A stretch of 64,000 nt of DNA, taken from contig NZ_CP013015.1 in the NCBI RefSeq assembly GCF_001577525.1, positions 1,941,751 to 2,005,750 of the forward strand. The letters run 5' to 3'. The stretch comes from Candidatus Desulfofervidus auxilii (GTDB lineage: Bacteria > Desulfobacterota > Desulfofervidia > Desulfofervidales > Desulfofervidaceae). Positions 1 through 16,346 of the stretch are shown here, piece by piece (positions within the stretch are counted from its first letter, which is position 1; each line of letters opens with the position of its first letter). A program made the translations under genes and the position numbers. Under the pieces are notes generated by a model, which had not been told where the DNA came from, made no database searches, and saw nothing but the letters and a program-made list of their open reading frames with translations.

Positions 1-1390
1 GAACTTTATAGCCAGATAATTTCTTGCGGCAAAAGTGAATAATTTCTTGAGGGCTTATTTGTAAGCCATTTTTTGAAACCACCACTGCCTTAACTACTTC
101 TCCTCTTAATCCATCCTGCACACCTACTACGGCCACCTCAGCTACCTTTGGGTGTTCAGCAATCACAAACTCCACTTCATTGGCGTAGACATTAATACCA
201 CCTGTAATAATCACTTCCTTTTTCCGACCAGTAATATAAAGATAGCCCTCTTCATCCAGATATCCTAAATCGCCTGTATAAAGCCAGCCATCTTTTATTA
301 TCTCTTTAGTCAATTCAGGCTCTTTGTAATAACCAGGCATAACAAACCAGCCTTTTAGCAATATTTCTCCTATTTCGTTGCAAGGTAGTTCATCACCTTT
401 ATCATCTACAATCTTTATCTCTACCCAGGGAGCAGGTTTACCAAGAATTCCTTTCCTAAACCGTTTTTCAGGCGGGGCATTTTTGGGTAAAAGGACATTT
501 GGGGCCGCCGATTCGGTCAGGCCCCAGCCAGTAATTCCTGTCACATGGGGAAATCTTTCTTCAAATTCTTTCAATAACCTTGGTGAGGCAGGAGCGCCAA
601 AATAAACAATAAGTTTTAAAGAATCAAGTCTTACTTTATTTATCTCCCTTGTCTTTAGCATCGCTTCTAAAATAGTTGGAGGTACCCAGGAAGCAGTAAC
701 ACCATAAGTCTCTATATCTTTTAGAAAACGACCTGGAGTGAACCTTTCTCCCAGGACTAGGGTGCTACCTGTACAAGCAAGCATAAGAAGATAGACAAGC
801 CCCCCTGCATGGGAAAGAGGGACATAGCAAATAAGCACTTTAAAGGGTTCAATCAGGTCAAAATATTTCATAGTAGCCACAGGGGAATCCAAGTGTCGAT
901 AGGTTAAAGGAATGGCCTTAGGTCTTCCAGTAGTGCCAGAGGTGTAAATAATGATTGCCAGTTCCTTTTCTTTTATCAACTCCTCTCTTGGAACCGCGCT
1001 TTGAGAGTTATTTATCAGATTGTCTATATCTGTGATAGTTTTTTTAAAAGAAGGCAGGTCAAAGGTAAAAAGTTCTTTAGCTATAAGATAATTGACTTCT
1101 GCATGGGCCAAGATATTTTTTAATTCATGTTGTTTTATTGAAGGGTCTAAAGGCACAACTGTAACCCCAAGGCCAAGGGCAGCTAAATAGGCATAGATGT
1201 ATTGTGGGCAATTGGGGAGGTAAATAGCTAGCTTTTCTCCTTTTTTCATCCCCAATGTTTGAAATGAAGTCATAAGCCTTTGGACCTTATTTAATAGCTC
1301 AGGGAATGTCTCTTTCTGGCCTTTATAAACAAGCGCTAGTTTGTCAGGATAGTTTTTGGCTGTATAGAGTAAACTTTCATAAATATTCAT
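1..1390 (-). CDS. AMP-forming acyl-CoA synthetase, copy A (partial, runs off left edge)
   Basis: This adenylate-forming enzyme would activate a carboxylic acid as acyl-AMP and then acyl-CoA. The ATG is at 1390, with a GGAG ribosome site inside the end of the preceding gene. The frame stays open to the window edge, so the last few C-terminal residues, including the expected catalytic lysine motif, are missing. Visible family motifs are the P-loop-like YTSGTTGRPKA, the GLTES motif, and YTGDLGYLDEEGYLYI followed by GRKKEVI. It is the third of three tandem paralogs at the end of a long minus-strand operon. In its C-terminal half it is nearly identical to copy C (2871-4319) and less like the middle copy. 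The acid substrate cannot be read from sequence. Context (SCP2 domain, LolA-like proteins, RND pump) favours a lipophilic acid. Confidence 0.9.
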   Translation of the reverse strand, partial: MNIYESLLYTAKNYPDKLALVYKGQKETFPELLNKVQRLMTSFQTLGMKKGEKLAIYLPNCPQYIYAYLAALGLGVTVVPLDPSIKQHELKNILAHAEVNYLIAKELFTFDLPSFKKTITDIDNLINNSQSAVPREELIKEKELAIIIYTSGTTGRPKAIPLTYRHLDSPVATMKYFDLIEPFKVLICYVPLSHAGGLVYLLMLACTGSTLVLGERFTPGRFLKDIETYGVTASWVPPTILEAMLKTREINKVRLDSLKLIVYFGAPASPRLLKEFEERFPHVTGITGWGLTESAAPNVLLPKNAPPEKRFRKGILGKPAPWVEIKIVDDKGDELPCNEIGEILLKGWFVMPGYYKEPELTKEIIKDGWLYTGDLGYLDEEGYLYITGRKKEVIITGGINVYANEVEFVIAEHPKVAEVAVVGVQDGLRGEVVKAVVVSKNGLQISPQEIIHFCRKKLSGYKV

Positions 1391-1391
1391 T

Positions 1392-2849
1392 TTAAATTAA
1401 CTCCGATTTTTTTATTTTACCACTACTTGTTTTGGGAAGTTTTGGTCTAAACTCTATCACCCTGGGCAATTTATAACTGGCCAATTTCTGGCGGCAATAA
1501 GAAAGTATCTCTTGAGGACTACATGGTTCTTTTAAGGTAATTATGGCCTTAATCAATTCTCCCCTTAGTTTATCTGGTGTGCTTATTACTGCTACTTCTT
1601 TTACTTTTGGATGTTCAGAGATAACAAACTCTACTTCATTAGCATATACAGTGAGTCCTCCAGTGATAATTACCTCTTTTTTTCTGCCGGCAATATAAAG
1701 ATAACCTTCTTCGTCTAGATAGCCCAAATCTCCTGTACAAAGCCAGCCATCTTTAATCACTTCTTTTGTTAATTGAGGTTCATTATAATAGCCCTTCATC
1801 ACAAAAGGGCCTTTAAGTAATACTTCTCCTATTTCACCAGGAGGAAGCTCATTGCCTCTGTCATCCACAATCTTTACCTTTACCCAAGGGGCAGGTTTTC
1901 CCAAAATGCCCTTTTTAACTCTTATCTCCATAGGTGCATCCAAGGGTAAGATTATATTTGGGGCAGTGGATTCTGTCAGACCGTAACCGGTGATCACATT
2001 TATGTGAGGGAATTTTTTCATAAATGCTTGAAAAACCCTAGGATGACAGGGAGCTCCAAATGGGCAGACATATTTTAGCGATTTGAGAGATATTATTTCC
2101 TTTTCCGTGACTTTTAATAATGCTTCTAGAATAGCTGGAGGAGCAAAGATGAGTTCAACTTGGTATTTTTCTATATATTTTAAACATCTCCCAGGAATAA
2201 ATCTTTCTATAATAACTATGGTGCTACCCATAGTGGCTTGAAATAAAGTATGAAGTGAACCTGCTTCGTGAGAGAAGGGAATGGCACAAAGTATGGTTTT
2301 AAAATCTTTTAGGCCAAAATAGCCTAAAGTCTTTACAGGGAATTCAAGATTTTTGTAAGTTAGCATTACTCCCTTTTGCTGTCCCGTGGTGCCAGATGTA
2401 TAAATAATAAGGGCTACATCCTCTTCATTGCCCATACCACGCAACTCTGTTTTGTCATCTATGGTCAATTTTTCTAAATTGCTCATAATGTGTTTGATAC
2501 TTGGGGTTTCTTTTTTTATCTTAGCGGTTTCATTGTCCGTTATAAGGATAGAGGCCTTTGCGTGATTTATTATTTTAATTGCCTCATCCTTTGTGGCCAT
2601 GATATCTATGGGAATAACCGTGGCCCCCAAACCAAAGGCAGCTAAATAGGCCATTATATATTCAGGACAGTTGGGTAGCCAGATGGCCAGTTTTTCCTCA
2701 GGTTGTAAACCAAACTGCTCCAAGGCATGTCCTATCTGGTTTACTTTTTCTAAGGCCTGAGCAAAGGTGATGACTTCTTCTTTAAAAATAAAAGCAGGTT
2801 TAGCTGCCTTTTCTTTGGCTATTTGAGAAAATTGTTTATAAACATCCAT
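1392..2849 (-). CDS. AMP-forming acyl-CoA synthetase, copy B
   Basis: A 485-residue member of the ANL superfamily (acyl-CoA synthetase type), full length for a short ligase. The ATP-binding motif YTSGTTG lies near residues 150-156, GYGLTES near 290, the TGDLGYLDEEGYLYI hinge region in the last quarter, and the conserved lysine in KTSSGKIKK close to the C-terminus. No signal peptide or membrane segment is visible, so it is cytoplasmic. The start is ATG with a GGAAG ribosome site. It lies one base from copy A and about 20 bases from copy C, so all three are co-transcribed. It is the most diverged of the three, for instance in the substrate-pocket region around residues 190-300, which suggests a different acyl preference. 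A coupled aldehyde dehydrogenase upstream could supply its acid substrate (inference). Confidence 0.93.
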   Translation of the reverse strand: MDVYKQFSQIAKEKAAKPAFIFKEEVITFAQALEKVNQIGHALEQFGLQPEEKLAIWLPNCPEYIMAYLAAFGLGATVIPIDIMATKDEAIKIINHAKASILITDNETAKIKKETPSIKHIMSNLEKLTIDDKTELRGMGNEEDVALIIYTSGTTGQQKGVMLTYKNLEFPVKTLGYFGLKDFKTILCAIPFSHEAGSLHTLFQATMGSTIVIIERFIPGRCLKYIEKYQVELIFAPPAILEALLKVTEKEIISLKSLKYVCPFGAPCHPRVFQAFMKKFPHINVITGYGLTESTAPNIILPLDAPMEIRVKKGILGKPAPWVKVKIVDDRGNELPPGEIGEVLLKGPFVMKGYYNEPQLTKEVIKDGWLCTGDLGYLDEEGYLYIAGRKKEVIITGGLTVYANEVEFVISEHPKVKEVAVISTPDKLRGELIKAIITLKEPCSPQEILSYCRQKLASYKLPRVIEFRPKLPKTSSGKIKKSELI

Positions 2850-2870: not shown

Positions 2871-4319
2871 TTAAACCAATTCTGTCTTTTTTATTTTACC
2901 TACTGGGGTTTTTGGTAGTTCACTCCTAAATTCAACCACTCGCGGGACTTTATAGCCAGGTAATTTCTTGCGACAAAAATTTATAATTTCTTGAGGGGTT
3001 GTCTGTAAACCATCCCTTGAGACCACCACTGCCTTAACTACTTCTCCCCTTAAAATATCAGGTATTCCTACTACAGCTACTTCCTTTATATTTGGATGTT
3101 CAGAAAGCACAAACTCTACTTCTGTTGCATAGACATTTAGCCCGCCCACAATAATTACCTCCTTTTTACGACCGGCAATATAAAGATAGCCTTCTTCATC
3201 TAAATAACCCAAATCTCCTGTATAAAGCCAGCCATCTTTTATTATCTCTTTAGTCAATTCGGGCTCTTTATAATAGCCAGGCATAACAAACCAGCCTTTT
3301 AGCAATATTTCACCTATTTTATTGCACGGGAGTTTATCACCTTTATCATCTACAATCTTTACCTTTACCCAGGGAGCTGGTTTACCTACGATACCTTTTT
3401 TATATCTTTTTTCTTTGGGCATATCTCTGGGAAATAACACATTTGGGGCAGCAGATTCTGTTAATCCATAACCAGTAACTCCATATATATGAGGGAATCT
3501 CCTTTCAATCTCTTTAAATAATCGGGGATGGGCAGGGGCACCAAAATAGACAATAGCCTTTAAAGTCTTTAATGATACCTCATTTATTTCCTTGGTATTT
3601 AAAGAAGCCTCTAAAATAGAAGGTGGCAACCATACAGCGGTAATTTTATATTTTTCTAATTCTTTCAAAAATACCCCAGGGATAAACCTTTTTCCCAATA
3701 CCAAGGTGCTTCCAAAATAAACGGTCATTAAAAGATAGACTAGACCCCCTAGATGTGAAAAAGGCACATAACAAATATTTCTTTCTAACCATTCATCATA
3801 ACCATAATAACCCAGGGTGGCTACAGGAGAATCCAGGTGTTTATAAGTAAAAGGCACAGCCTTGGGGCTACCGGTGGTGCCTGAGGTGTAAATAAGGACA
3901 GCCAATGCCTTTTCATCAAGTATTTGTCCATCTACAGCATTAGCTGAATTAATTAAATTGTCTATATCTTTTATCACTTTAACTTCTGAAACTTCTATAT
4001 CTTTTTCCGATATAAGGTAATTTACTTCGGCATGCCTTAAGATATTTTTTACTTCTTCTTTTTTAAATGAGGCGTCCAAAGGCACTACGGTTATACCTAA
4101 AGACAATGCTGCTAAATAGGCATAAATGTATTCAGGACAATTGGGCAAACAAATGGCCAGTTTTTCTCCCCTTTTCATCCCCAATGCCTGAAATGCCCCT
4201 ATTAATTTTCTTACTTTGATAAATAGCTGTGCAAATGAATCTATGTGTTCACCAAAAATAAGGGCATCTTTTTGGGGGTATTTTTTTACTGTATTTTGGA
4301 GAACATTATAAAAATCCAT
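2871..4319 (-). CDS. AMP-forming acyl-CoA synthetase, copy C
   Basis: A 482-residue ANL-superfamily ligase with all expected motifs: YTSGTTGSPKA, GYGLTESAAPN, YTGDLGYLDEEGYLYIAGRKKEVI and the C-terminal KTPVGKIKK lysine motif. The start is ATG at 4319 with an AGGAG ribosome site. The gene begins only 10 bases after the DUF1302-like outer-membrane gene, so it is the first of the three ligases in transcription order. It shares long near-identical stretches with copy A, which points to recent duplication or gene conversion. It probably converts a free acid to its CoA thioester at the expense of ATP. The specific substrate is unknown, and a fatty or aryl-alkyl acid is as likely as acetate. Confidence 0.93.
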   Translation of the reverse strand: MDFYNVLQNTVKKYPQKDALIFGEHIDSFAQLFIKVRKLIGAFQALGMKRGEKLAICLPNCPEYIYAYLAALSLGITVVPLDASFKKEEVKNILRHAEVNYLISEKDIEVSEVKVIKDIDNLINSANAVDGQILDEKALAVLIYTSGTTGSPKAVPFTYKHLDSPVATLGYYGYDEWLERNICYVPFSHLGGLVYLLMTVYFGSTLVLGKRFIPGVFLKELEKYKITAVWLPPSILEASLNTKEINEVSLKTLKAIVYFGAPAHPRLFKEIERRFPHIYGVTGYGLTESAAPNVLFPRDMPKEKRYKKGIVGKPAPWVKVKIVDDKGDKLPCNKIGEILLKGWFVMPGYYKEPELTKEIIKDGWLYTGDLGYLDEEGYLYIAGRKKEVIIVGGLNVYATEVEFVLSEHPNIKEVAVVGIPDILRGEVVKAVVVSRDGLQTTPQEIINFCRKKLPGYKVPRVVEFRSELPKTPVGKIKKTELV

Positions 4320-4329
4320 GTTTCAACTC

Positions 4330-5832
4330 CTAGAAACTATATTTTACTTCAAAATATAGCTCCTTACTGTCATTGAATTGACCATGAAGTCCGCTTTCCT
4401 TTCCTTCCAGGATGTGGGCACCTACAGTAGTAGTCCAGTGGTCTCCCCACTCAAAATAGAAGGAAGGACTTATCCTCCAATCATTATCATCACCATAAAC
4501 TATTAAAATATTGGGTTTAAGCCTTTCATGAAAGAAATCAGTTGAAACTCTTAAAGTCAGTAAAGTTTCTACCTTATCCATAGCTCCCCCTGAAGGCCAG
4601 ACAAATGGTTGTCCATCTATATCTTTTTTAGAATTAATTAATTGGATGAATTGAAAACTGGCCAGCCAATTGGTAACAATGTATTTATCCAAACCAATCA
4701 CATAATTATAGCAATCTGTCTTTGCCCATTTAAATTTGCCATCTTTGGTGCGATAAGCCCTATAATCGTTTCTTACATAAGCAAATTCACCCCTCAAAGT
4801 CAGGCCTTTTAAAAATCCACTTACAAATGTCTTTGAGAATGTGCCTCCCCAGACATTTATACGGTGATATTTTTTGGTAAAGTAAAAGGTGCTCCCCGGA
4901 GGGGCAATCCCTTGAGAGTGAAGAAAGTTTTGTAGTTCCGTAGGGCTCATATGCATACGCATCGCTAGTTCCTGAAATTTTTGGGGGTCCATAGTGCTGG
5001 TATCTACAGTGGTGACCCTTTCAGGTGATTCTGTCTCCCAGGAATAAATATAATTTAAGGTATATTCAAAACTACCCAAGACATCCCGCCATCTTACCCC
5101 AAATTTTGAATTTCCCCATTTTTCTCCAGGTCTTCCTTCATGGGAAATTATCCGGTAATCAAAAGGAACTCCGGCCATGCCTGTGCGGCTAAAATTCAAT
5201 AAAGCATCCATCATCTTGGCTCCTTCTTTACTGGTGCCAATAGCAAACGGTGCCCCTACGGCTGGCCAATAGTCAGGTTCAAAATCAGGGATTAATAAAA
5301 ATTGAAGACTTCCATTTACTGTAGGTTGAAACTCTATCTTTAATGTCCAAAGGGGAATTTTTATTTCATTCCAGGGTTTAAGGGTAAATTCTCGCCAGTC
5401 CAATGGGTTTACATATTTATCCAAGACCCTTATACCATCTGCTGTCCCCCAGGTTATTAATTGCTTTCCTGCCCTAATATCTAAATACTCCGAAAAAAAG
5501 TCCACATAAACTTCCCTTACCCAGGATATACCCTGCCAGGTCTCTCGGTTGGTATACATGGCCTGGTGGGCAGGTGCGTATGCGTCTTCCTGATTGTAGG
5601 CAAAATCCCACCATTTATAAATATGGCCATAAAATGAAAGCCACGGTCTTGGTTTATATTGCCCTCTTAAGTCAACGATATTCATAATTTTAATCCACTT
5701 ATGAAAGTCAGGATAAACCCCAGTCTCACTCTTAATATAACCCTCTACGGTGACAGGACCTTTTTGGTAAATAGTTGCCTGACCTAAACCTGGTAAAAAA
5801 ACCACCAACAAAACAATTAGCCATTTTCTCAT
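4330..5832 (-). CDS. DUF1302-like outer-membrane beta-barrel protein
   Basis: A 500-residue exported protein. A signal peptide (RKWLIVLLVVFLPGLGQA) is followed by a sequence rich in alternating aromatic and polar strands. It ends in a C-terminal aromatic residue (VKYSF), as outer-membrane barrels do. The segment RAGKQLITWGTADGIRVLDK followed by NPLDWREF resembles the hallmark of the DUF1302 family. That family often sits beside LolA-fold (DUF1329-like) proteins and MMPL/RND transporters, exactly as here. ATG at 5832 follows a GAGGAGGG ribosome site. It is probably the outer-membrane part of an envelope transport route for a lipophilic compound, acting with the two LolA-like proteins and the RND protein upstream. 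Direction of transport (import or export) is not decidable. Confidence 0.8.
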   Translation of the reverse strand: MRKWLIVLLVVFLPGLGQATIYQKGPVTVEGYIKSETGVYPDFHKWIKIMNIVDLRGQYKPRPWLSFYGHIYKWWDFAYNQEDAYAPAHQAMYTNRETWQGISWVREVYVDFFSEYLDIRAGKQLITWGTADGIRVLDKYVNPLDWREFTLKPWNEIKIPLWTLKIEFQPTVNGSLQFLLIPDFEPDYWPAVGAPFAIGTSKEGAKMMDALLNFSRTGMAGVPFDYRIISHEGRPGEKWGNSKFGVRWRDVLGSFEYTLNYIYSWETESPERVTTVDTSTMDPQKFQELAMRMHMSPTELQNFLHSQGIAPPGSTFYFTKKYHRINVWGGTFSKTFVSGFLKGLTLRGEFAYVRNDYRAYRTKDGKFKWAKTDCYNYVIGLDKYIVTNWLASFQFIQLINSKKDIDGQPFVWPSGGAMDKVETLLTLRVSTDFFHERLKPNILIVYGDDNDWRISPSFYFEWGDHWTTTVGAHILEGKESGLHGQFNDSKELYFEVKYSF

Positions 5833-6282: not shown

Positions 6283-7149
6283 TTACCATTCCTGTCTTTC
6301 TAAAATACGCGGTGAAAAATGTCTTTCCTTTAAACCTGAATTGTAACACCCAGGTTCAATAAGGAGTGTATCAGAATGTCCGGTGCGAAAGTTATAGACC
6401 TCCCATATCCTGGCCCACCAGCAACCTTCTTTAGGAGTATCAAAATAGTGAAAGATTTCTTTAAATTTCCTGCCTTTCTTGTCATAATACTCTTCATAAA
6501 TATCAATCCCTGTATTTTTATCTATCCAGACAATGCGATGGGTGTAATACCACGGGTTTTTTTTGGGCACGGCCTTGATTTTGTAGCAGGGGGTATTGGC
6601 ATAATAAATTTTTTTGTTGTAATGGGCCTTATAGCCTTTGAATATTTCTTCTCCTAACAATTCATATGTCTCATAACCATATCTTCTGGTAGTGACTTCT
6701 TCTACCGTGAATTCTGTGCCCATAAAAGAATCGTCTCCTTCGGCTTGCGAGACCTTTCTTATCTTTTTCATAGAAGGGAGCCAGATCCAGATATCATTCT
6801 GTTTGTTTATATCCATATAGGCCCAATTTAAGACCGCCAGCCCTTTGCTGTATTCAGGATAAGTAATGGCAATGAGGTCCTTATAGTCAAATCCATTTTT
6901 ACCATGCATAATAATTCTTTTTCTGACCGCCTTCTTTTCCCTTTTATAGCCGGATTTATCTATCATGATTAAATTTACCCCATTATAGACCGCATCATTC
7001 ACAAAACGGGTGAATTTGATATCAAACCAGTGTTGCATGATTTGCTCTGCAGTGGGATGAGGCGGTAAATCAGGTGGGCGACAGGTCATAGCCAGGCCCA
7101 GGCTTCCTAAAAACAAAAAAAACATTAGAAAAAAAAGCATTTTTTTCAT
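6283..7149 (-). CDS. LolA-fold outer-membrane lipoprotein-sorting-like protein, second copy
   Basis: A 288-residue secreted protein. The signal peptide is MKKMLFFLMFFLFLGSLGLA, and the mature chain resembles the outer membrane lipoprotein-sorting (LolA-like) family. The typical segment WLPSMKKIRKVSQAEGDDSF followed by MGTEFTVEEV is present near the middle. The start was set at the ATG at 7149 because it directly precedes the signal peptide and has an AAGGAGGAA ribosome site. Upstream candidates lie inside the neighbouring gene. It is a close paralog of the gene at 7161-8024, 11 bases away. In RND/MMPL-linked loci such periplasmic proteins are thought to carry hydrophobic cargo between membranes. 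The cargo here is unknown. Confidence 0.85.
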   Translation of the reverse strand: MKKMLFFLMFFLFLGSLGLAMTCRPPDLPPHPTAEQIMQHWFDIKFTRFVNDAVYNGVNLIMIDKSGYKREKKAVRKRIIMHGKNGFDYKDLIAITYPEYSKGLAVLNWAYMDINKQNDIWIWLPSMKKIRKVSQAEGDDSFMGTEFTVEEVTTRRYGYETYELLGEEIFKGYKAHYNKKIYYANTPCYKIKAVPKKNPWYYTHRIVWIDKNTGIDIYEEYYDKKGRKFKEIFHYFDTPKEGCWWARIWEVYNFRTGHSDTLLIEPGCYNSGLKERHFSPRILERQEW

Positions 7150-7160
7150 AAAATTCCTCC

Positions 7161-8024
7161 TTACCATTCCATTCTTTCTAAAATCCTGGGGCTAAATGCC
7201 CGCTCTTTTAAGCCCGTGTTAAATTTATAGGTTTGAATATCTATGCAATCAGCATGGCCAGTGCGGAAATTATAGACTTCCCATATCTTTGAAACCCAGC
7301 AATTTTTTTCTGGAGTGAGATAGTAGCGAAAAATGACCTTAAATTTTCTTCCTGCCTTGTCATAATATTCGTCAAAGATAGCAATACCTGTCTTTTTATC
7401 TATCCAGATTATGCGATAGCTATAATACCAGTTTTTCTTTTGAGGGATGCCTTTTATTTTATAGCAGGGTGTATCCTTAAAATAGCTCTTACCGTCTAAT
7501 CGGCTGGTATAGCCAGGGAAATTCCCCTCTCCTAAAAATTCATAGGTTTCATATCCATAACGACGGGTAGTAATGTCTTCTACAGTAAATTCACTGCCTA
7601 AAAATGAATCATCTTCTTCTGCCTGGGAAACCTTTCTTACCTTCTTTAAAGAAGGTAACCAAAGCCAGAGGTCATTCTGTTTTTTTACATCTAAATAGGC
7701 CCAGGTGAGCACAGCCAATCCTTTGGTATATTCAGGATAGGTCATGACTACTAAATCTTTGTAATCTGTTCCTTTCTTGCCATGCATAATCAAACGGCGC
7801 CGAATCCACTTTTTTGTGCGTTTAAATCCTGATTTATCAATCATGACTAACTGTCCTGTGTAATAGACATCATCCGCATAACGAGTAAACTTAATCTCAA
7901 ACCACCGCTGCATAATTTGCTCTACTGTGGGATGAGGTGGCAAAGTTTTAGGCCGACAACTGGCTGCAAACCCTGTTGAAGGCAATAGAAATAAAATTCC
8001 CAGAAATAGCCATAACTTTTTCAT
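7161..8024 (-). CDS. LolA-fold outer-membrane lipoprotein-sorting-like protein, first copy
   Basis: A 287-residue periplasmic protein with a signal peptide (MKKLWLFLGILFLLPSTGFA) and the same LolA-like core as its neighbour: WLPSLKKVRKVSQAEEDDSF then LGSEFTVEDI. The ATG at 8024 is preceded by AAGGAGG. A start further upstream would run into the aldehyde dehydrogenase gene. The two paralogs align over the whole length, including HPT.EQIMQ.WF.IKFTR near the N-terminus, so they arose by tandem duplication and may form a heteromer or serve two steps. It is part of the envelope transport set with the RND transporter and the DUF1302-like barrel. Confidence 0.85.
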   Translation of the reverse strand: MKKLWLFLGILFLLPSTGFAASCRPKTLPPHPTVEQIMQRWFEIKFTRYADDVYYTGQLVMIDKSGFKRTKKWIRRRLIMHGKKGTDYKDLVVMTYPEYTKGLAVLTWAYLDVKKQNDLWLWLPSLKKVRKVSQAEEDDSFLGSEFTVEDITTRRYGYETYEFLGEGNFPGYTSRLDGKSYFKDTPCYKIKGIPQKKNWYYSYRIIWIDKKTGIAIFDEYYDKAGRKFKVIFRYYLTPEKNCWVSKIWEVYNFRTGHADCIDIQTYKFNTGLKERAFSPRILERMEW

Positions 8025-8038
8025 AACCAACCTCCTTT

Positions 8039-9466
8039 TTATCCAAACCACCCTGATACCTGAGTCTTACCAAAGGAAATCCCAATGTGTTTTGGCTGTA
8101 AATATTCAAATAAACCCCATTTGCCCAATGTTCTTCCAAAGCCACTTTCCTTAAAACCACCAAAAGGAGTGCGGGCATCCATCTGAGCAAAGGTATTTAT
8201 CCAGACCGTGCCATATTGAGCATTTTCAGCCAATGCCTTTGCTTTTTTTAAATCTTTTGACCAGATCTGAAGCACTAAGCCCGTAGGGTTTTGTGCTATT
8301 ATGGTTTCTATTTCTTCTTGGTTAAATTTTTTTACTAACAAAATGGGATTGAAACATTCTGCATAAATCATTTCTGGTATTTCTATAATAGTGGGTTCAA
8401 AAAAATAACCTTTAGTTTCTAATGCCTTTCCGCCTTTAATGATTTTTGCCCTTTTTTCTTTAAATTCTTCTACCTTGTTTACTACTTCTTCTAAGTGTTT
8501 TTTTGACCTTAGAGGCCCCATACCTGTTAAGGCAGAACTAGGGTCTCCTACTTTTATCTTTTCCATTTTTTTACTTAAAAGCTCTAAAAACTGCTTATAA
8601 ATACCTTCTTCAATCAAACAAACACTGGTATTAATGCACATCTGTCCCTGTTTCATAAAGGCAGAGGCCATAATATTTTCTGATGATTCTTCCAGGTCTG
8701 CATCTGAAAAGACAATAGCCAGATTTACTCCACTTAATTCACTAATGACTTTTTTAGGCCTTTTTATACTTTCAAATATCTTTTTAAATGTTTCACTTGC
8801 ACCAGTGAAGGAAAACATATCTATATCTGATGCAGCCAATGCCTTTCCAATAATAGGGCCTTCTCCTGTAATGATGTTTATTAATCCCTCAGGAAAATCT
8901 AGCTCATCAATGTATTTTGCCAATTCTAATAAAGAGAGACTGCCAAGTTCAGATGGTTTAACAATTATGGCATTTCCTGCAGCCAAGGCAGCAGCGGCGT
9001 TAAATCCAAATAACATTAGAGGTACATTATAGGGTAAAAACATGCCCACTACACCAAAAGGGACATATTCAACCATATCAAAAGCATCTTTATTAAAGAA
9101 TGAGGGAAAAGAGACATTTTCTATCAAAGAAGCATAATATTCAAAACACTGAGCAGCTAAAGGAATATCCACAAAGAGTGTTTCTTTTATGGGTTTGCCT
9201 ATTTCTTTTGTTTCTAATTCAGCCAAATTTTTTAGATTTTCAAGGATTACCTTAGAAATACCTTGTAATAATTGTTTTCTTTCTTTAAAAGAGGTCTTTT
9301 GCCAGGTTTTTTGAGCCGATTTTGCTTTTTCAATACAAAATACCAAGTCACTTTCATCTGCTTGGGGTATTTGAGCAAAGACTTCTTGTGTAGCCGGATT
9401 TTCTATTAAAATTTTTTCTTTTTTATCCCTAAACTCTCCACCGATATACATACTATATGTGTGCAT
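8039..9466 (-). CDS. NAD(P)-dependent aldehyde dehydrogenase
   Basis: A 475-residue aldehyde dehydrogenase superfamily enzyme, normal length. The oxyanion asparagine is in PYNVPL, the nucleotide-binding turn in FTGASETF, the general-base glutamate in SELSGVN, and the catalytic cysteine in GQMCINTS. The ATG at 9466 has a GGAG ribosome site, and the gene begins 3 bases after the aldolase gene. It would oxidise an aldehyde to the acid. Directly downstream of a class II aldolase, it most simply takes the aldehyde fragment of the retro-aldol reaction, and the downstream acyl-CoA synthetases could then activate the acid (inference from order). It has no membrane segment. The exact substrate is unknown; SGVN in place of the usual LGGN-type motif is a small family variant. 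Confidence 0.92.
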   Translation of the reverse strand: MHTYSMYIGGEFRDKKEKILIENPATQEVFAQIPQADESDLVFCIEKAKSAQKTWQKTSFKERKQLLQGISKVILENLKNLAELETKEIGKPIKETLFVDIPLAAQCFEYYASLIENVSFPSFFNKDAFDMVEYVPFGVVGMFLPYNVPLMLFGFNAAAALAAGNAIIVKPSELGSLSLLELAKYIDELDFPEGLINIITGEGPIIGKALAASDIDMFSFTGASETFKKIFESIKRPKKVISELSGVNLAIVFSDADLEESSENIMASAFMKQGQMCINTSVCLIEEGIYKQFLELLSKKMEKIKVGDPSSALTGMGPLRSKKHLEEVVNKVEEFKEKRAKIIKGGKALETKGYFFEPTIIEIPEMIYAECFNPILLVKKFNQEEIETIIAQNPTGLVLQIWSKDLKKAKALAENAQYGTVWINTFAQMDARTPFGGFKESGFGRTLGKWGLFEYLQPKHIGISFGKTQVSGWFG

Positions 9467-9469
9467 TTT

Positions 9470-10450
9470 TTACTCCACTCCCACTTCTTTCCAAAGGGCA
9501 AATGTCCTTTCAAATACAGGAAACCATTTAGAAAGTTTATTGAAATCCCCCTTTAGTTTTATTTTGCCCTGGTTGAAGGCTACAAATGGATCGAGTTCAC
9601 CATTAAAAATTTTTTTCCAAAACTCCCCTTTAGCCGAAAACACAAATTCTGCATTTTCTTCACTATTTTTTACTTGTATTATCTTTCCTTGCTGATAGCA
9701 AAAAGAAATAGTTGTCTTGCTATCTGTTTCTTTATTGCATAAAACAGTAGTAAGATTGAGTTTTTCCCCTAAAGAACGGGCAGTTTGATCATTGTTTATT
9801 GTTTCTACCAAAGCCGCAATATGCTCTTTAGAAAATAATTTGTATTTCTTTACTTGGGTTTCTTTTTTAGGAGGGATTTTAGCCAATGACTTCAAGTTAT
9901 GAGTGATTAAACTAACCTTAGCGGTGGTTTCTAAAAGTTCAATTAAAGAAAACACAGAGACAAATTCCTTCCCTATGGCTACCACCCCATGATTTTTTAG
10001 CACTACTATATCATTGTTTTCTAGAGCACTTATCACTGGAGAAACATCTGTAACTGTAGGAGTAGTTTGAGGGATGGCAATAATATTGCCCAGATAAATT
10101 TTTTCTTCGAAGGTAATGGGCGTTAAGGTATCAAAATAGTGAAAATAATATACTGTCCAGGGCGAATGGGCATGGATGACAATAGGTTTTTCTTTAAAAG
10201 TTTTATGGATGACCAGATGAAGAGCTAATTCTGAAGTGGGTTTTTTACTACCTTCTAAAACATTGCCTTCTTTATCTATGACCAAAATATCTTCTTTTTC
10301 TAAAAATCCTAAATAAGCATTATGTGCGGTAATAAGAATCTTATCATTGATACATTTTGAAATATTGCCAGAACTTCCACAAAGCAGCCCCCTTTGATGC
10401 AACTGCCCTCCCCAGAATATGATTTCTTCTTTCTCTTGCTCGTAACTCAT
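9470..10450 (-). CDS. class II aldolase fused to SCP2-like lipid-binding domain
   Basis: A 326-residue two-domain protein. Residues about 1-200 are a class II (fuculose-phosphate type) aldolase. SGNIS is the phosphate-binding turn, the catalytic glutamate is in PTSELALH, and the metal histidines are in HAHSP and KNHGVVA. Residues about 225-326 resemble the SCP2 sterol-carrier fold: a long acidic strand region, then FWKKIFNGELDPFVAF, GKIKLKGD and a final helix. Aldolases of this family cleave 5-substituted ribulose-1-phosphates to DHAP and an aldehyde. The fused lipid-binding domain is unusual and suggests a hydrophobic substituent on the sugar. The start overlaps the previous stop (ATGA), which implies translational coupling. 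Confidence 0.82.
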   Translation of the reverse strand: MSYEQEKEEIIFWGGQLHQRGLLCGSSGNISKCINDKILITAHNAYLGFLEKEDILVIDKEGNVLEGSKKPTSELALHLVIHKTFKEKPIVIHAHSPWTVYYFHYFDTLTPITFEEKIYLGNIIAIPQTTPTVTDVSPVISALENNDIVVLKNHGVVAIGKEFVSVFSLIELLETTAKVSLITHNLKSLAKIPPKKETQVKKYKLFSKEHIAALVETINNDQTARSLGEKLNLTTVLCNKETDSKTTISFCYQQGKIIQVKNSEENAEFVFSAKGEFWKKIFNGELDPFVAFNQGKIKLKGDFNKLSKWFPVFERTFALWKEVGVE

Positions 10451-10902
10451 TTTATGAACTCCATGGGCACATATTCGTCTTTTGCTTCCACTGCTGCATT
10501 TTTGAAAAATAAACAGCCATCTATGGTTAATGCATCCTGGTCAAATACCCTTAAATCAATTTCTTCGCCTTTTAATGCCTTAATAGGCACCTGATGCAAA
10601 TGAGATAAAAGACAGACATAAAGGCTTCCACAGATACCCCAAAAATGGCCATTTTCCATTTTTTTATAAAAAAATAGCACCTCTTTTATTTTTTGTTTAT
10701 AAAAAAGAAGTCCTAACATATTATCTGTGACATAAATGGGTTTCACACCTTCTTTGTTTAATCTCTCTGCTACTTTAAGCCCTAAAATATAGGGTCTCAT
10801 TTCTGGTATAAACACCGAGTTGGTTTTTTTAATCTTTTTTAATCCTTCTTTTGAAGGAATGCCCCAAAGAAGAGAAAGACTATTTAGTTTTTCTAATCGC
10901 AT
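10447..10902 (-). CDS. half-length eIF2B/MtnA-like protein lacking catalytic residues
   Basis: A 151-residue protein that I read as a shortened, diverged relative of the next gene (10893-11780). The stretch VFIPEMRPYILGLKVAERLN followed by KPIYVTDNMLGLL mirrors VFVSETRPYLQGTRLTFWELN and AKLICDNQAAILM there, which is the C-terminal half of the MtnA/eIF2B fold. The catalytic cysteine (TICN) and the GADR aspartate of the isomerase are absent. The ATG at 10902 is preferred over an upstream GTG because of an AGGGTGG ribosome site. It overlaps both neighbours. It could be a regulatory or structural partner of the isomerase. This assignment rests on motif similarity only. Confidence 0.6.
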   Translation of the reverse strand: MRLEKLNSLSLLWGIPSKEGLKKIKKTNSVFIPEMRPYILGLKVAERLNKEGVKPIYVTDNMLGLLFYKQKIKEVLFFYKKMENGHFWGICGSLYVCLLSHLHQVPIKALKGEEIDLRVFDQDALTIDGCLFFKNAAVEAKDEYVPMEFIK

Positions 10903-11780
10903 ATCTCTATCCACCCTGAAATATATTTGGCCGGAGTAATATCAAATGCCGGATAAATTGTTTCTGGAAAATCCCTTTTTTTAAGCCACATAAACACCTC
11001 TTCTTCAGGCCTTTGTTCTATTTCAATATTTTCTATGTCTATTTCCCTTGGGTATTGGGTAAGGGCATAAAAAGGAATCTTAAAATAATGGGCAAGCCTG
11101 GCTAGGGCATAGGTGCCTATTTTATTTATAATATCTCCTTTTTTATTAGACCTATCTGCCCCAGTAATGACACAATTTATTTGACCGTCTTTCATTAAAA
11201 TGGCCGCCTGATTGTCGCATATCAATTTTGCAGGAATATGAGCCTTATTTAACTCCCAAAAGGTAAGTCTTGTCCCTTGTAAATATGGCCTGGTTTCTGA
11301 AACAAAAAATATGGCTTCCTTTCCTATTTCCTTTAAGGCAGAATACAAATAAACGAGTTCTCCATTTAGATTACAGATAGTTAAAATTCGGGCTTCAGCA
11401 GGCAACAATTTGGCCAATTTTTTAACCCGTTTTTTTCTCTTTTCTTCAAATCCCTGGACAAAACCATTTACTGCCTGCTTTATATCTAAATTCTGTCCAC
11501 AGGCTTTCTTTAATATTTCTGCCAGACGGAAAAAATCAAAGGTAGGACGTATTTTTTTAAAGGCCATAGCAGTTTTATCAATTTCTCTCACTAAAGCACA
11601 GGTATAAAAAAACAATAATACCTGACCAAAGGCCCTGGTCTTCATTTTTCCTAAGACTTCTAAGGCCTCATCTAAACTTTTCACTGTAATATATGCTTCT
11701 TTAAAAGGAAGTTGCGTTTCATCTAAGACATAAATAGTATTATTTTCCATCCTTACCGGAAAGGCCAGTGGATTATACAT
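10893..11780 (-). CDS. MtnA/eIF2B-like sugar-1-phosphate isomerase
   Basis: A 295-residue protein of the MtnA/eIF2B-alpha family. Members of the enzymatic branch convert 5-methylthioribose-1-phosphate or 5-deoxyribose-1-phosphate to the ribulose-1-phosphate. Both catalytic signatures are visible: the cysteine in LTICNLNGE and the aspartate in ITGADRSNKKGD, followed by the family hallmark NKIGTYALA. That argues for a true isomerase rather than a translation factor. The protein is somewhat shorter than classical MtnA. The ATG at 11780 has a GGAG site and overlaps the phosphorylase stop by 8 bases. Between a nucleoside phosphorylase and a class II aldolase it supplies the middle step of a DHAP-shunt-type sequence. 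The 5-substituent of the sugar is not known. Confidence 0.82.
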   Translation of the reverse strand: MYNPLAFPVRMENNTIYVLDETQLPFKEAYITVKSLDEALEVLGKMKTRAFGQVLLFFYTCALVREIDKTAMAFKKIRPTFDFFRLAEILKKACGQNLDIKQAVNGFVQGFEEKRKKRVKKLAKLLPAEARILTICNLNGELVYLYSALKEIGKEAIFFVSETRPYLQGTRLTFWELNKAHIPAKLICDNQAAILMKDGQINCVITGADRSNKKGDIINKIGTYALARLAHYFKIPFYALTQYPREIDIENIEIEQRPEEEVFMWLKKRDFPETIYPAFDITPAKYISGWIEICD

Positions 11781-12504
11781 CAATTACTCCAATCAGATCA
11801 AAGGCACGGTCAATCATCTTTTTTTCAGCATCAAAAACTTTAATACTGGCAAAACCAATTTCTCCTGTAATTAAATTATCACTGACCAATAAAATAGCGG
11901 CTGCTTTTTTGTCATAAAGATTAGCAATAGTTAAAAAAGGGCTGGTCACCATATCTACGGCAATGGCTCCTTGACTGATAGCCTCATTGACCACTTCTTT
12001 TGTTTCTCTCAATAAGGCGTCTGTGGTCCAAACCATACCTTTATGTATCTCTTTAAAGACCGTGGCCAATTTACCATTTAATTCCTGATCCGCCTCAGGG
12101 ATAGCCCCATCATTTACATAATATCTAGTAACCCCATCTCCCCTTAAGACACTCTCTACTAGAACATAATCCCCAATGTTTATCTCTTTTCGCATACTGC
12201 CACATGAACCAAGTCTGATTAAATAATCCACTCCCCCTGCACAGAGCAATTCTGTTACTAAAGCCGCATCTGGGGCATACATTCCACCATTCCCTACAGT
12301 TACTCGCTTTCCTTTATATTCTCCTGTCCAAAAGGTGTAACCAAAGGCAGAAAAGTTCTTTAAGGGATTTTTTAGTTTTTCTAAAGCCATACTTACTCTT
12401 TGGGGTTGACCACTGATAATGGCAATTTTTGCCAAATCTCCTTCTTTAAACTGCACTGCCTTTAATAAATCCATTGGTGTGATGTGAATTTCCCTTTGCA
12501 TCAT
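11773..12504 (-). CDS. nucleoside phosphorylase-like protein (PNP/UDP family)
   Basis: A 243-residue NP-I family protein. SGQPQRV matches the phosphate-binding start of the fold, GVDYLIRLGSCGSM the central strand, and the catalytic aspartate stands in LLVSDN. The usual ribose-binding motif (EMEAAG in E. coli PNP) reads DMVTSP here, so the glutamate that binds the ribose 2'- and 3'-hydroxyls in E. coli is not conserved. That hints at a non-standard nucleoside. The start is placed at the first of two adjacent ATGs (12504), which has a TAGGAG site. It follows the radical SAM gene by 10 bases. The expected reaction is phosphorolysis of an adenosine-type nucleoside to adenine and a 5-substituted ribose-1-phosphate. 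MTA/5'-deoxyadenosine phosphorylase is the conservative alternative. Confidence 0.78.
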   Translation of the reverse strand: MMQREIHITPMDLLKAVQFKEGDLAKIAIISGQPQRVSMALEKLKNPLKNFSAFGYTFWTGEYKGKRVTVGNGGMYAPDAALVTELLCAGGVDYLIRLGSCGSMRKEINIGDYVLVESVLRGDGVTRYYVNDGAIPEADQELNGKLATVFKEIHKGMVWTTDALLRETKEVVNEAISQGAIAVDMVTSPFLTIANLYDKKAAAILLVSDNLITGEIGFASIKVFDAEKKMIDRAFDLIGVIDV

Positions 12505-12514
12505 TTTTAGGCTC

Positions 12515-13975
12515 CTAAACAAAGATTTCATCTTCAATAGCTGCTTTGGTATGGGCTTCGGCGGTTTCTATATAGCATCTAGCAGTAAGCCTACAGAAAG
12601 GATGATATTTTTTATCATATAAAATCCTCTGTACTCGTCCGGGCTGACTATAAAACTCCCTGTTTGCCCAGGCCGCCAATCTACCCAGGTCTTCTTTGCT
12701 TAGATATTTGGTAGATACCACGGCATGCTGAAAGTCCCACTTTCTTAAATCCTGATCTTCAATGAATGGCTCAAGCTCCTTATACATGGGAATACCTGGT
12801 AATGGAGTCATAATTTGGAGGGCAGTCATATCAGGGTCAATATGGTTAATTCTTTCAAACCTGTCTTTAATCTTTACTTCATCGTCATCTGGAAATCCTA
12901 CCATCCAGGTAACTACTGACATAATGTTATTTTCCCGAAAGAGTCTTACAGTTTCTGCTACCTGATCCACACTAATTCCTTTATTTATCTTCTCTAAGGT
13001 TTTTTTATCTACTGCCTCCATCCCAAAAAGCCCACAAACAAAGCCTATTTTTCTCAAGGGTTTTAATAAATCCTTGTCTCTCAAGTGATATGGGGCACGT
13101 CCCATAAAGAAAAATTTGACCTTGAGCTGTCTCTTTTCCATTTCTTCAATAAATTCCTCCATCCTTTCTCTATATACATTAAAATCTTCATCCATCATCA
13201 CTACCCACTTTGCCCCAAACTGTTTCTCTAGGAGTTCTAATTCCTCTGCTACCCTTTTGCCTGAACGAATGCGGTAACATGTCCAATCTTTATCCCCTCT
13301 ATGGTCATAGTTGGTCCAACCCACACAAAAACGACAACCATTGGGACAACCTCTGGAGTGATAGGTTTCTACATAATGCTTGATCCGGTTAAAACCAATA
13401 TATTTATCCATAGGAAATAAATCATAGGCAGGGAGGGGTAAATCATCCAGATTTTCTATTAAAGGACGATATTCTGTAAGTTCTACTGTCCCATTATTCC
13501 TATAACTTAGCCCCTTTATTGATGGAATATCAGGGTCTTTTTTACTTAATTCTTTAGTTAGTTCTGGCATGGTGCGTTCTGTTTCACCAGCAATGACAAA
13601 ATCAAATTCAGGTGTTTCTTCAAGCATCTTTGGTGCATTTGCCCCGTAAAAAAATCCCCCTACACAAATTTGGACTTGTGGCATGTTTTCCTTAATAAGC
13701 TTGGCTGCCCTTTGATACCTTGGATGGATAGCCGCTACACCGGTAGTCTGTAAGGCATCTCCCATATAGACTAAGTTTGGTTCTATTTCTTTAATAGCAT
13801 TAATCATTTGTGTTTCACTAAAATTTAAGGCACGACAATCCAGGACTTTAATTTCAATCTCTGGATACCATTCCCTTAAATTGGCAGCTAATTGGGCATG
13901 ATTGACATTTATGGCAATGTGTCTTCCCCAAGTAACCCAGCCACCCATGGGGGGTTGTAAAAACAGAACCTTCAT
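12515..13975 (-). CDS. B12-binding-domain radical SAM enzyme
   Basis: A 486-residue protein. Residues about 1-150 form a cobalamin-binding-like Rossmann domain (LFLQPPMGGW, LVYMGDALQTTG, ICVGGFF, FVIAGETE). A radical SAM TIM barrel follows, with the cluster motif CPNGCRFC near residue 212 and the later elements MDEDF, GMEAVDKKTLEKINKG and TWMVGFPDD. There is a C-terminal extension of about 100 residues. The family includes methyltransferases, ring-contracting enzymes and hopanoid-modifying proteins. The ATG at 13975 has an AAGGAGG site. Immediately downstream is a nucleoside phosphorylase, and any radical SAM enzyme of this class releases or attaches 5'-deoxyadenosyl groups. Whether this one methylates, rearranges or adenosylates its substrate cannot be told from sequence. 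Confidence 0.92.
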   Translation of the reverse strand: MKVLFLQPPMGGWVTWGRHIAINVNHAQLAANLREWYPEIEIKVLDCRALNFSETQMINAIKEIEPNLVYMGDALQTTGVAAIHPRYQRAAKLIKENMPQVQICVGGFFYGANAPKMLEETPEFDFVIAGETERTMPELTKELSKKDPDIPSIKGLSYRNNGTVELTEYRPLIENLDDLPLPAYDLFPMDKYIGFNRIKHYVETYHSRGCPNGCRFCVGWTNYDHRGDKDWTCYRIRSGKRVAEELELLEKQFGAKWVVMMDEDFNVYRERMEEFIEEMEKRQLKVKFFFMGRAPYHLRDKDLLKPLRKIGFVCGLFGMEAVDKKTLEKINKGISVDQVAETVRLFRENNIMSVVTWMVGFPDDDEVKIKDRFERINHIDPDMTALQIMTPLPGIPMYKELEPFIEDQDLRKWDFQHAVVSTKYLSKEDLGRLAAWANREFYSQPGRVQRILYDKKYHPFCRLTARCYIETAEAHTKAAIEDEIFV

Positions 13976-13990
13976 TTTTTTCCTCCTTTC

Positions 13991-16315
13991 CTATTTATCC
14001 ATAGGTTTCATTAAAAAATTTGGCTTTAAAAGTAAGATAAATATAGGCAATATAATTAATGCCGAAAGCATATTAATAAACAATAAAAATCCTAAAGTGC
14101 CTCCTAGCTTTGCCTGCAATTTCAGATTTGACCATACCCAGGACCAAATCCCAATGGTTAAAATGCTTCCTGTAAAAAACACTGCCTTACCACAGGTGAA
14201 AACAGCCCGATTGATAGCAGTAATCAGATTAACTCCTTTCTCTTTTTCTTCCTTAATCCTGGATGCCAAATAGATACTGTAATCGATGCCCAGTCCTGTG
14301 CCCATGGCCGCCACAGGCAGGGTGGCTACCGTAAATGGAATATTAAACAATCCAAAGCTACCAAAGGTTAAGGCAATGCTAAAGGCCAGGGGAATAAAGA
14401 GAATTAAGCCACCAGTAAAAGAGCGTAAGGCTAAAGTAATACGGAGAAATATAAGCAAACTCAAAACAGCTATATTAGTGAATAAGCTTTTTTTAATAAT
14501 TTCATTGGTTGCTCCTAAGATCCCGATTAAACCACCTGCATAATCAAAACTTAAAAGGTGACTACGATGATAATTTTTTATCCATTGTTTGGTCAAACTA
14601 ACTACGCGTTGGATAGTTGTTCCTTGACAGTCTTTTAAGTCAAAGCGGATGTTGGCAAATTGATGGTCTGGGGTGATAAAGGCATCAAACTCTCCTGGGA
14701 AGGCATTACTTTCATAAAGAAAGATGTATTCTCCAATAGTGCTATCTTTTTTAGGCACTTCAAATTGATGCTGAATGGCTAGATTCATTAACTTGATATA
14801 ATCAGCTACCGAAAGGCTATAGCCTACTTCTTTCAGATTATGACGCAAAAATCTATTTAATTCGTCAATTTCTTGGATTGCCTCTGATTTAAGTAATGAT
14901 TCTGGCCCTTTGCCTTTAATCAATAAATAATAAGGATTTGAGCCCTCAAAATATTTATTTATCTTTCGCTCCGCTACATTATAAGGTGCATCTCGGTAAA
15001 GAGTAGAAGTTCCTGGTTCATTTTCTCCTATCTCTATGTGCTTAATGCCATATATAGCAGTGAGAAAAAGAGTTACAAATAAAGTCAGCATAAGATACAT
15101 CCGCCATTTTCTCTGCCAGAGCCACATAAAGCGTTTAAGAATAAAGGCTGTAAGGCTTAAATGGCTATTGTTCTGTTTTTTAAAATAAGGGACAGGGAAG
15201 GTAGCAAAACAGGCAGGTAAAAACATTACTACACTGATAAAGAGACTTAAAACACCCAAACTGCCTAAGACCGCAATACTTTTCATGGCCGGGATAGGAA
15301 TTAGGATTAAAGAAAAAAATCCCAAAAAATCAGTAAAAATAGAGGCACGGATAGGACTTAATAAAGAAACCAAAACGGTATGAGCAATATGTGTTTTATC
15401 TGTTTTTAAATGACTCTCTTCAAAATACCGCTCCATGAATTGAATGCTATGACTTATAGCCAGAATAAAGATGAGAAAGGGAATCAATATAGTAAAAGGA
15501 TTGAGGGTTAAATGAAACACATTAATTATAGCTAGACTAAATACCACCGACATACTACCTGCCAATAAGGGCAATAGAAATCCCCGCTTTTTCCGAAAGG
15601 CCAAAAACAGTAAAGAAAGAATGATGACTAAAGTCACGGCAAAGATATGGAAGATAAAAGATAAATTGGCATCAATATAACCTTCTAGAATGGGTCTACC
15701 ACTTAAATAGATATTTACATCGGCCCCTTGGTAACGACTAACTATTTCTTTTACTTTGGCATAAATCTGGTGGGCAGGGATATCTTCTTTAAAATCAGCT
15801 TGAATTAAAGTAGCCTTAAAGTCTTTGGAGACCAGAGGCCCGTAAACCAGGGGATTATGTTCAATTTTTTTTCTCAATGATGCCAATTCTTGGGGTGTTT
15901 GGGGAATTTCACGGAGGAGTTTGGTAACCGAGAATCCATCAGGCCAAATTTCAATGTGTTTCACATTCTGGGCAAAAAGAGAATGAACCCTTCTGGGATT
16001 GACCTCATCTAAAAGTTGGATTTCTTCCGCTATCTGCTGGACTTCTTTTAAAACAGCCGGCTGCAGTATATCACCTTGCTGAGCTTCAATAGCGATATTT
16101 ACCCTATTTAACCCCCCAAAAAGCTGGTTAAGGGTATTTTGCACAGAAATAAATCGATGTTTACTAGGAATGAAATCAATTTGACGGGTCTCTATCTTAA
16201 TGTCCCTAATAAGAAAGAGAGAGACAATAGATAGAAATATAGGCAGAAAAATGCCTAAAAGACGCCACTTGAGAATAAATTTAGCAATCCGCTCTTCTTT
16301 TATAAGACCTGCCAT
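13991..16315 (-). CDS. RND superfamily (MMPL/HpnN-like) transporter
   Basis: A 774-residue inner-membrane protein with the RND layout. One N-terminal membrane helix is followed by a large periplasmic loop (about residues 50-215), a five-to-six helix bundle, a second helix and loop (about 425-590), and a final bundle ending near the C-terminus. The MMPL-type motif GTGLGIDYSIYLASRIKEE is present in the second bundle. Such proteins move lipids or hopanoids (HpnN) or other hydrophobic compounds across the envelope using the proton gradient. ATG at 16315 was chosen because the promoter at 16347-16375 would start RNA near 16340, which excludes an upstream TTG. No strong ribosome site is seen. It is the first gene of the long minus-strand operon. 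Confidence 0.9.
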   Translation of the reverse strand: MAGLIKEERIAKFILKWRLLGIFLPIFLSIVSLFLIRDIKIETRQIDFIPSKHRFISVQNTLNQLFGGLNRVNIAIEAQQGDILQPAVLKEVQQIAEEIQLLDEVNPRRVHSLFAQNVKHIEIWPDGFSVTKLLREIPQTPQELASLRKKIEHNPLVYGPLVSKDFKATLIQADFKEDIPAHQIYAKVKEIVSRYQGADVNIYLSGRPILEGYIDANLSFIFHIFAVTLVIILSLLFLAFRKKRGFLLPLLAGSMSVVFSLAIINVFHLTLNPFTILIPFLIFILAISHSIQFMERYFEESHLKTDKTHIAHTVLVSLLSPIRASIFTDFLGFFSLILIPIPAMKSIAVLGSLGVLSLFISVVMFLPACFATFPVPYFKKQNNSHLSLTAFILKRFMWLWQRKWRMYLMLTLFVTLFLTAIYGIKHIEIGENEPGTSTLYRDAPYNVAERKINKYFEGSNPYYLLIKGKGPESLLKSEAIQEIDELNRFLRHNLKEVGYSLSVADYIKLMNLAIQHQFEVPKKDSTIGEYIFLYESNAFPGEFDAFITPDHQFANIRFDLKDCQGTTIQRVVSLTKQWIKNYHRSHLLSFDYAGGLIGILGATNEIIKKSLFTNIAVLSLLIFLRITLALRSFTGGLILFIPLAFSIALTFGSFGLFNIPFTVATLPVAAMGTGLGIDYSIYLASRIKEEKEKGVNLITAINRAVFTCGKAVFFTGSILTIGIWSWVWSNLKLQAKLGGTLGFLLFINMLSALIILPIFILLLKPNFLMKPMDK

Positions 16316-16346
16316 AATTTTAAAGTAAAATTTTAATGACAAGACT

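Follow-up and report, generated by a model that had tools for sequence, protein, structure and literature searches.

A conserved radical SAM and SCP2-aldolase cassette in Candidatus Desulfofervidus auxilii and other anaerobes, with a possible role in the two-carbon extension of hydrophobic molecules

Analysis of a 64,000-nucleotide stretch of Candidatus Desulfofervidus auxilii (contig NZ_CP013015.1, positions 1,941,751 to 2,005,750; hereafter the window) led to an operon that joins a B12-type radical S-adenosylmethionine (SAM) enzyme, a phosphorylase, an isomerase and a class II aldolase carrying an SCP2 domain, in a cassette that is conserved in several phyla. The enzymes belong to known families and their reaction order is that of the dihydroxyacetone phosphate (DHAP) shunt; the cassette has parts beyond the shunt and its isomerase lies under the canonical MtnA cut-offs. 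We propose that B12 radical SAM enzymes may adenosylate hydrophobic molecules and that a lipid-binding relay of enzymes would then leave a two-carbon extension activated by coenzyme A (CoA), either alone or together with a type II polyketide synthase (PKS), a proposal on which we are evenly divided. Literature searches returned no description of this cassette, and a paper concerning limonene and Omnitrophota (PMC12583861) proved unrelated to it.

The operon lies on the minus strand of a 2.54 Mb genome assembled in a single contig, and extends from 16342 down to base 1 and beyond, out of the window, with neighboring genes overlapping or separated by at most 60 bases. It encodes, in order, an RND transporter, the B12-type radical SAM enzyme, a phosphorylase of the purine nucleoside phosphorylase (PNP) family, an MtnA-like isomerase, a 155 aa isomerase-like protein, the aldolase-SCP2, an aldehyde dehydrogenase, two LolA-like proteins, a 23S-rRNA-IVP-type open reading frame (ORF), a DUF1302 barrel and three acyl-CoA synthetases. 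Family matches were obtained with MMPL/RND, Radical_SAM plus B12-binding, PNP_UDP_1, IF-2B (MtnA), Aldolase_II plus SCP2 (1.2e-9), Aldedh, LolA_like/DUF1329 (twice), DUF1302 and AMP-binding. Every gene named in the original prediction, which had been made from the sequence alone, was found in the order given there; its inventory had overlooked the 155 aa protein of IF-2B fold and the 121 aa ORF, and the third of its synthetases, all of which were seen, extends beyond the window.

A search of approximately 85,000 species genomes with the N-terminus of the isomerase yielded 37 public loci with the cassette core, mostly in Candidatus Omnitrophota and Deltaproteobacteria/Desulfobacterota. Its block-wise conservation in 37 loci of several phyla shows that the cassette is not a chance assembly. 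Over the clustered loci (the window counted as one and four loci counted twice), the isomerase was recorded 43 times, the aldolase-SCP2 40, the radical SAM enzyme and the short isomerase-like subunit 36 each, the phosphorylase 31, the aldehyde dehydrogenase 29, the CoA ligase 22, the RND and LolA families 17 each and DUF1302 14. The phosphorylase count refers to the analyzed stretches; several further copies belong to the same cluster just beyond them or are encoded at another genomic site. Polyketide-type loci also have the gene, either farther upstream within their cluster or at a separate site, and it is present in L040 too. An orthologue of the radical SAM family was detected in 17 of 17 cassette genomes tested, including those in which it is located away from the cassette. 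Among 395 Desulfobacterota, the radical SAM enzyme is rare, with 13 carriers, and the full-length aldolase-SCP2 has 14, with both present in 10 (expected 0.46; P ~1e-14). These correspond to approximately 4-5 independent lineages, not ten, since six of the ten double carriers are close relatives.

In the isomerase, Cys137 and Asp210, the catalytic pair pointed out initially, are kept in all aligned orthologues. The protein scores below the canonical MtnA cut-offs (166 against 279 bits for TIGR00512 and 174 against 271 bits for PRK05720). When 13 cassette isomerases were aligned with canonical ones, all 13 proved to lack both the RGAPAIG loop and a stretch of seven residues that comes directly after the catalytic Cys, with the Cys, the Asp and the ETRPxxQG and NKxGT motifs retained; overall, RGAPAIG is replaced in 39/39 cassette isomerases. 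Such a loss would be expected if a pocket that once enclosed a methyl or methylthio substituent has since opened up. The 155 aa partner is encoded between isomerase and aldolase, and in most loci its gene is adjacent to that of the isomerase. Of the IF-2B/MtnA fold it retains the ExRPxxxG and TDNM motifs, but not the catalytic Cys and Asp. Isomerase and short partner are fused into a single 508 aa protein in L068 and L070, and L063 has one 873 aa reading frame that spans isomerase, short subunit, aldolase and SCP2. This arrangement suggests that the isomerase and its partner may form a heteromeric enzyme, and the gene fusions are good evidence that the isomerase and the SCP2-aldolase catalyze consecutive steps of a pathway.

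The metal-site residues of the aldolase (His93/95/154 and Glu74) are kept in all aligned orthologues, and SCP2 was matched by Pfam in 29 of the 31 cassette aldolases. The AlphaFold model of the aldolase-SCP2 is of high confidence in both domains (mean predicted local distance difference test, pLDDT, 91). Fold matches of the aldolase half include FucA and the DHAP-bound DrdA (6btg, among the top aldolases), and the best PDB sequence matches of the SCP2 tail, weak as they are (0.011), are sterol carrier proteins. The phosphorylase model (pLDDT 89) has the Sulfolobus 5'-methylthioadenosine (MTA) phosphorylase 1jdv as its best fold match. Elsewhere, an LsrF-type thiolase, an aldolase-SCP2 and a CoA ligase are consecutive in another Desulfobacterota genome (L144:3-2882). 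Divergent aldolase-SCP2 fusions from one Desulfobacterota family (L145, L146, L147) stand apart from the rest of the cassette, which is absent there; being divergent and having other neighbors, they were set aside as cassette members.

The CxxxCxxC motif of the radical SAM enzyme is kept in all aligned orthologues, and the tree of the family splits with full support into two clades (A and B). With the BchE-type B12 enzymes it shares both domains and its best NCBIfam score, which is below the equivalog cut-off (TIGR02026, 217 against 481 bits); it is also below that of the ladderane cluster family TIGR04072 (81 against 360 bits).

Among the possible readings, the following is the one that we favor, with moderate confidence. 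The B12-type radical SAM enzyme would transfer the 5'-deoxyadenosyl group from SAM onto a hydrophobic acceptor R; the adduct, we infer, would be a 5'-C-alkyl adenosine. The phosphorylase would remove adenine to leave R-ribose-1-phosphate, the isomerase, as a heteromer with its short partner, would convert this to R-ribulose-1-phosphate, and the SCP2-aldolase, with the lipid part held in its SCP2 domain, would cleave the latter to DHAP and R-CH2-CHO. From this aldehyde, the dehydrogenase and the CoA ligases would produce R-CH2-CO-CoA, and in some Omnitrophota a zinc alcohol dehydrogenase and an LsrF-type thiolase could lead to the same acyl-CoA by C4 oxidation and thiolysis. In sum, an unfunctionalized acceptor would gain two carbons of the SAM ribose and an activated carboxyl group without oxygen. 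Directly visible in the sequences are the gene content and its conservation, the catalytic residues, the gene fusions and the co-occurrence; the model adds to them, by inference, the adenosylation, the acceptor, the direction and the ligand of SCP2. The order of phosphorylase, isomerase and aldolase and the hydrophobic substrate had both been proposed in the original prediction, and they are backed by the SCP2 domain, the isomerase loops, the Ame-type transport genes described below, the co-occurrence of the radical SAM enzyme and the presence of separate salvage genes; the link to hopanoids drawn there was not.

Six loci have an LsrF-type thiolase (353 bits against a cut-off of 297) after the cassette, usually with a zinc alcohol dehydrogenase. 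LsrF acts on 3-hydroxy-5-phosphonooxypentane-2,4-dione, and thiolysis yields DHAP and an acyl-CoA; this named substrate is a C4-oxidized 5-deoxyribulose-1-phosphate. Its presence in these loci is independent support for a 5-(substituted)-deoxyribulose-1-phosphate intermediate on the way to an acyl-CoA, without specifying the substituent. A precedent for adenosylation by a radical SAM enzyme, and for carbons of the SAM ribose in a product, is the futalosine pathway of menaquinone synthesis (MqnE, MqnB), from which the cassette differs by its other radical SAM family and by a release through isomerase and aldolase in place of the cyclization and cleavage by MqnC/MqnD.

Two forms of the cassette were recognized. 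Form A, which is that of the window, of Desulfofervidaceae and of some Omnitrophota, is accompanied by FadD and by RND/LolA/DUF1302 genes; it can stand alone, because the polyketide cyclase had no match anywhere in the genomes of several form-A Omnitrophota. In form B the cassette is embedded in a type II polyketide cluster with genes for FadD, phosphorylase, an SRPBCC protein, an ApbA-like reductase, a TIGR04076 protein, a ketosynthase pair, an acyl carrier protein (ACP), a PF04199 cyclase, an SRPBCC cyclase, MFS, SDR, the radical SAM enzyme, an amidohydrolase, the isomerase pair, the aldolase-SCP2 and the dehydrogenase, and about half of the loci are polyketide-type clusters. The ketosynthase pair, ACP, cyclases and reductase mark form B as a type II PKS, into which the extension module would be built. 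The best solved relatives of its ketosynthase are 6smo, which we take to be AntD of the Photorhabdus anthraquinone PKS, and the actinorhodin ketosynthase. With these aromatic systems form B has in common the ketosynthase pair, the ACP, the SRPBCC and PF04199 cyclases and the SDR, whereas its union with the cassette and its occurrence in anaerobes set it apart. The genome of the window has a polyketide cluster of its own with a clade-B radical SAM enzyme at 1.347-1.358 Mb (G000:C1:1347165-1357693; L108 from 12165 to L109 ~2693), comprising, apart from that enzyme, an aldehyde ferredoxin oxidoreductase, ApbA-like and TIGR04076 proteins, two ketosynthases, an ACP, two cyclases, an SDR and an amidohydrolase. 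Clusters labeled as ladderane are reported for non-anammox Omnitrophota and Desulfobacterota (PMC9902471), and form B might be included among them.

The transporter of the window, initially described as RND/HpnN-like, is indeed of the RND type but not HpnN, being far below that cut-off (TIGR03480, 69 against 752 bits); its best NCBIfam match is HAE3 (TIGR00921, 177 bits, under the cut-off of 352). An HAE3-like RND protein, a DUF1302 barrel and DUF1329/LolA proteins in one operon constitute a gene set of the AmeABCD type. AmeA/AmeB/AmeD form an efflux system for apolar monoterpenes, and in Castellaniella such genes adjoin anaerobic monoterpene metabolism (PMC6394551). By analogy, the triad of the window resembles AmeA/AmeB/AmeD, the HAE3-like RND protein, the barrel and the periplasmic DUF1329/LolA proteins of a single operon being common to both; the likeness is at family level, and the window differs in its two LolA_like genes and in their clustering with the cassette. 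Such a system would move the compound or the product in the window form. The original prediction would have been refuted by loci that keep the shunt enzymes and lack SCP2, RND and the LolA-like genes. SCP2 does accompany the enzymes; RND and LolA are not constant and are absent in G052, L041, L049, L054, L057 and L067-L075.

Several points weigh against the adenosylation model. We know of no B12-type radical SAM enzyme that adenosylates its substrate, and the known adenosylating enzymes, HpnH and MqnE, belong to other families. The phosphorylase and aldolase trees are not strictly sorted by radical SAM clade, as one would predict were both clades to supply the same nucleoside, for example 5'-deoxyadenosine. 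Val or Ile takes the place of the superfamily's ribose-hydroxyl-binding Glu in 38/38 phosphorylase copies, a substitution that could indicate a changed reaction. Additionally, the dehydrogenase is not always beside the cassette (G003, G004, L053, L057), G006, G028 and G420 have the radical SAM enzyme but no detected aldolase-SCP2, and in three genomes a paralogue of the window enzyme adjoins a glycyl radical enzyme (L110:12903-17652; L133:293-5113; L137:2-1926), with an activase present in L110 and L133. That glycyl radical enzyme was considered as a hydrocarbon-adding synthase and rejected, as its scores place it in the PFL2/dehydratase group. Separately, the radical SAM enzyme, a short isomerase-like protein, a CoA ligase and an acyltransferase-like gene are consecutive at L138:10040-14475, and a search for a full-length aldolase-SCP2 in that genome found none.

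The main rival, somewhat unlikely in our judgment, is a dedicated salvage of the by-product. Here the radical SAM enzyme would act on a lipid or polyketide with chemistry like that of BchE, releasing 5'-deoxyadenosine, its own inhibitor. The phosphorylase, the isomerase, the aldolase and the dehydrogenase, or alternatively the LsrF route, would turn this by-product into DHAP and acetate or acetyl-CoA. It is established that 5'-deoxyadenosine inhibits radical SAM enzymes and that it can be disposed of as DHAP and acetaldehyde (PMC6079011; PMC8102628). The best structural matches, MTA phosphorylase and the FucA/DrdA aldolases, fit such a role, as do downstream enzymes common to both radical SAM clades. 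With the DHAP shunt and drd systems (MtnP or MtnK, MtnA, Ald2/DrdA) the cassette shares three co-encoded reaction types (phosphorylase, MtnA-type isomerase, class II aldolase), the conserved catalytic residues of isomerase and aldolase and the expected products, DHAP and an aldehyde. However, the cassette differs in the SCP2 on its aldolase, the non-catalytic isomerase subunit, the remodeled isomerase loops, the Val for Glu, the obligate radical SAM partner and its coexistence with canonical MtnA. SCP2 is kept on the aldolase across phyla with no evident reason if the aldehyde were acetaldehyde, and the loss of the canonical pocket loops speaks against salvage as well. Moreover, a separate canonical MtnA above its curated cut-off is encoded elsewhere in 27/29 cassette genomes and other PNP-family genes in 22/24, so general salvage is already covered and a housekeeping salvage of MTA or 5'-deoxyadenosine is disfavored.

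A catabolic variant of the adenosylation model, which does not exclude it, would have imported hydrocarbons or terpenes adenosylated, extended and beta-oxidized. The three CoA ligases of the window, the PadR-/MarR-like regulators (named by eye) at the head of several loci and the association of Ame-type genes with monoterpene metabolism in Castellaniella are consistent with it, yet it appears unlikely given that about half of the loci look biosynthetic, that SAM is a costly activating reagent and that no beta-oxidation genes were recognized beside the cassette.

Very improbable is a reversed direction, in which a fatty aldehyde and DHAP would be condensed on the SCP2-aldolase, isomerized to an aldose-1-phosphate and joined to adenine as a nucleoside lipid. 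The core reactions are reversible in principle, aldol-direction assays of DrdA have covered several aldehydes (PMC6079011) and the transport genes would export the product, but the dehydrogenase resembles acid-forming (betaine-aldehyde-DH-like) types and would not supply the aldehyde, the LsrF thiolase fits cleavage only, and the radical SAM enzyme would be left without a role despite its constant co-occurrence.

An in-house hopanoid or triterpene acceptor was rejected: no hopene cyclase passed the cut-off in 41 cassette genomes (nor in any control genome, so that the sensitivity of this search is unproven), squalene/phytoene synthase was not found in the window genome with controls that did score, and HpnH (TIGR03470) neither matched the window enzyme nor had a gene over its cut-off in that genome. 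The hopanoid analogy originally drawn fails likewise, as radical SAM enzyme, phosphorylase (38 against 187 bits for HpnG, TIGR03468) and transporter are not HpnH, HpnG and HpnN. Only the idea of an adenosylated lipid losing its adenine through a PNP-family enzyme is common to both, the cassette having other enzyme families, no hopene cyclase and a continuation by isomerase and aldolase.

If the adenosylation model is correct, SAM would serve anaerobes as a two-carbon donor for inert hydrophobic compounds, by a logic comparable to fumarate addition, and this would be a new oxygen-free route to functionalize hydrocarbons or lipids. It would bring the large B12 family into the group of adenosylating radical SAM enzymes, which is small so far, assign a function to a conserved cassette of Omnitrophota and Desulfofervidaceae, and predict new lipids or polyketides. 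Even the conservative reading provides an unrecognized gene set and an undescribed family of type II polyketide clusters in uncultured anaerobes.

Table 1. Genes of the operon, with positions in the window.
Feature	Position	Strand	Remarks
RND/MMPL transporter, HAE3-like	13991..16342	-	TIGR00921 177 bits, HpnN 69
B12-binding radical SAM enzyme, clade A	12515..13975	-	Nearest NCBIfam BchE, 217 bits (cut-off 481)
PNP-family protein	11773..12537	-	Start probably near 12504; Val in place of the ribose-binding Glu
MtnA-like aldose-1-phosphate isomerase	10893..11783	-	Cys137 and Asp210 kept, pocket loops shortened
Short MtnA-like partner, 155 aa	10447..10914	-	IF-2B fold, without catalytic Cys/Asp
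Class II aldolase with C-terminal SCP2 (residues ~205-326)	9470..10450	-	Aldolase_II and SCP2 match; AlphaFold pLDDT 91
Aldehyde dehydrogenase, NAD(P)-type	8039..9466	-	Aldedh; betaine-aldehyde-DH-like
LolA_like/DUF1329 periplasmic carrier 1	7161..8051	-	Family match
LolA_like/DUF1329 periplasmic carrier 2	6283..7167	-	Family match
23S-rRNA-IVP-like four-helix ORF, 121 aa	5893-6258	-	Between LolA2 and DUF1302 barrel
DUF1302 outer-membrane barrel, AmeA-like	4330..5832	-	Family match; AmeA per PMC6394551
AMP-forming acyl-CoA synthetase 1	2871..4319	-	Family match
AMP-forming acyl-CoA synthetase 2	1392..2849	-	Family match
AMP-forming acyl-CoA synthetase 3, truncated by window edge	2..1390	-	Similarity to synthetases 1 and 2

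The 23S-rRNA-IVP-type ORF has no counterpart at that position in the loci of relatives (L031, L035, L037). Divergent from the operon, the window encodes at 17071-19182 (+) a 703 aa protein with an unusual pairing of an HD-CE domain and a C-terminal IF-2B (MtnA-fold) domain.

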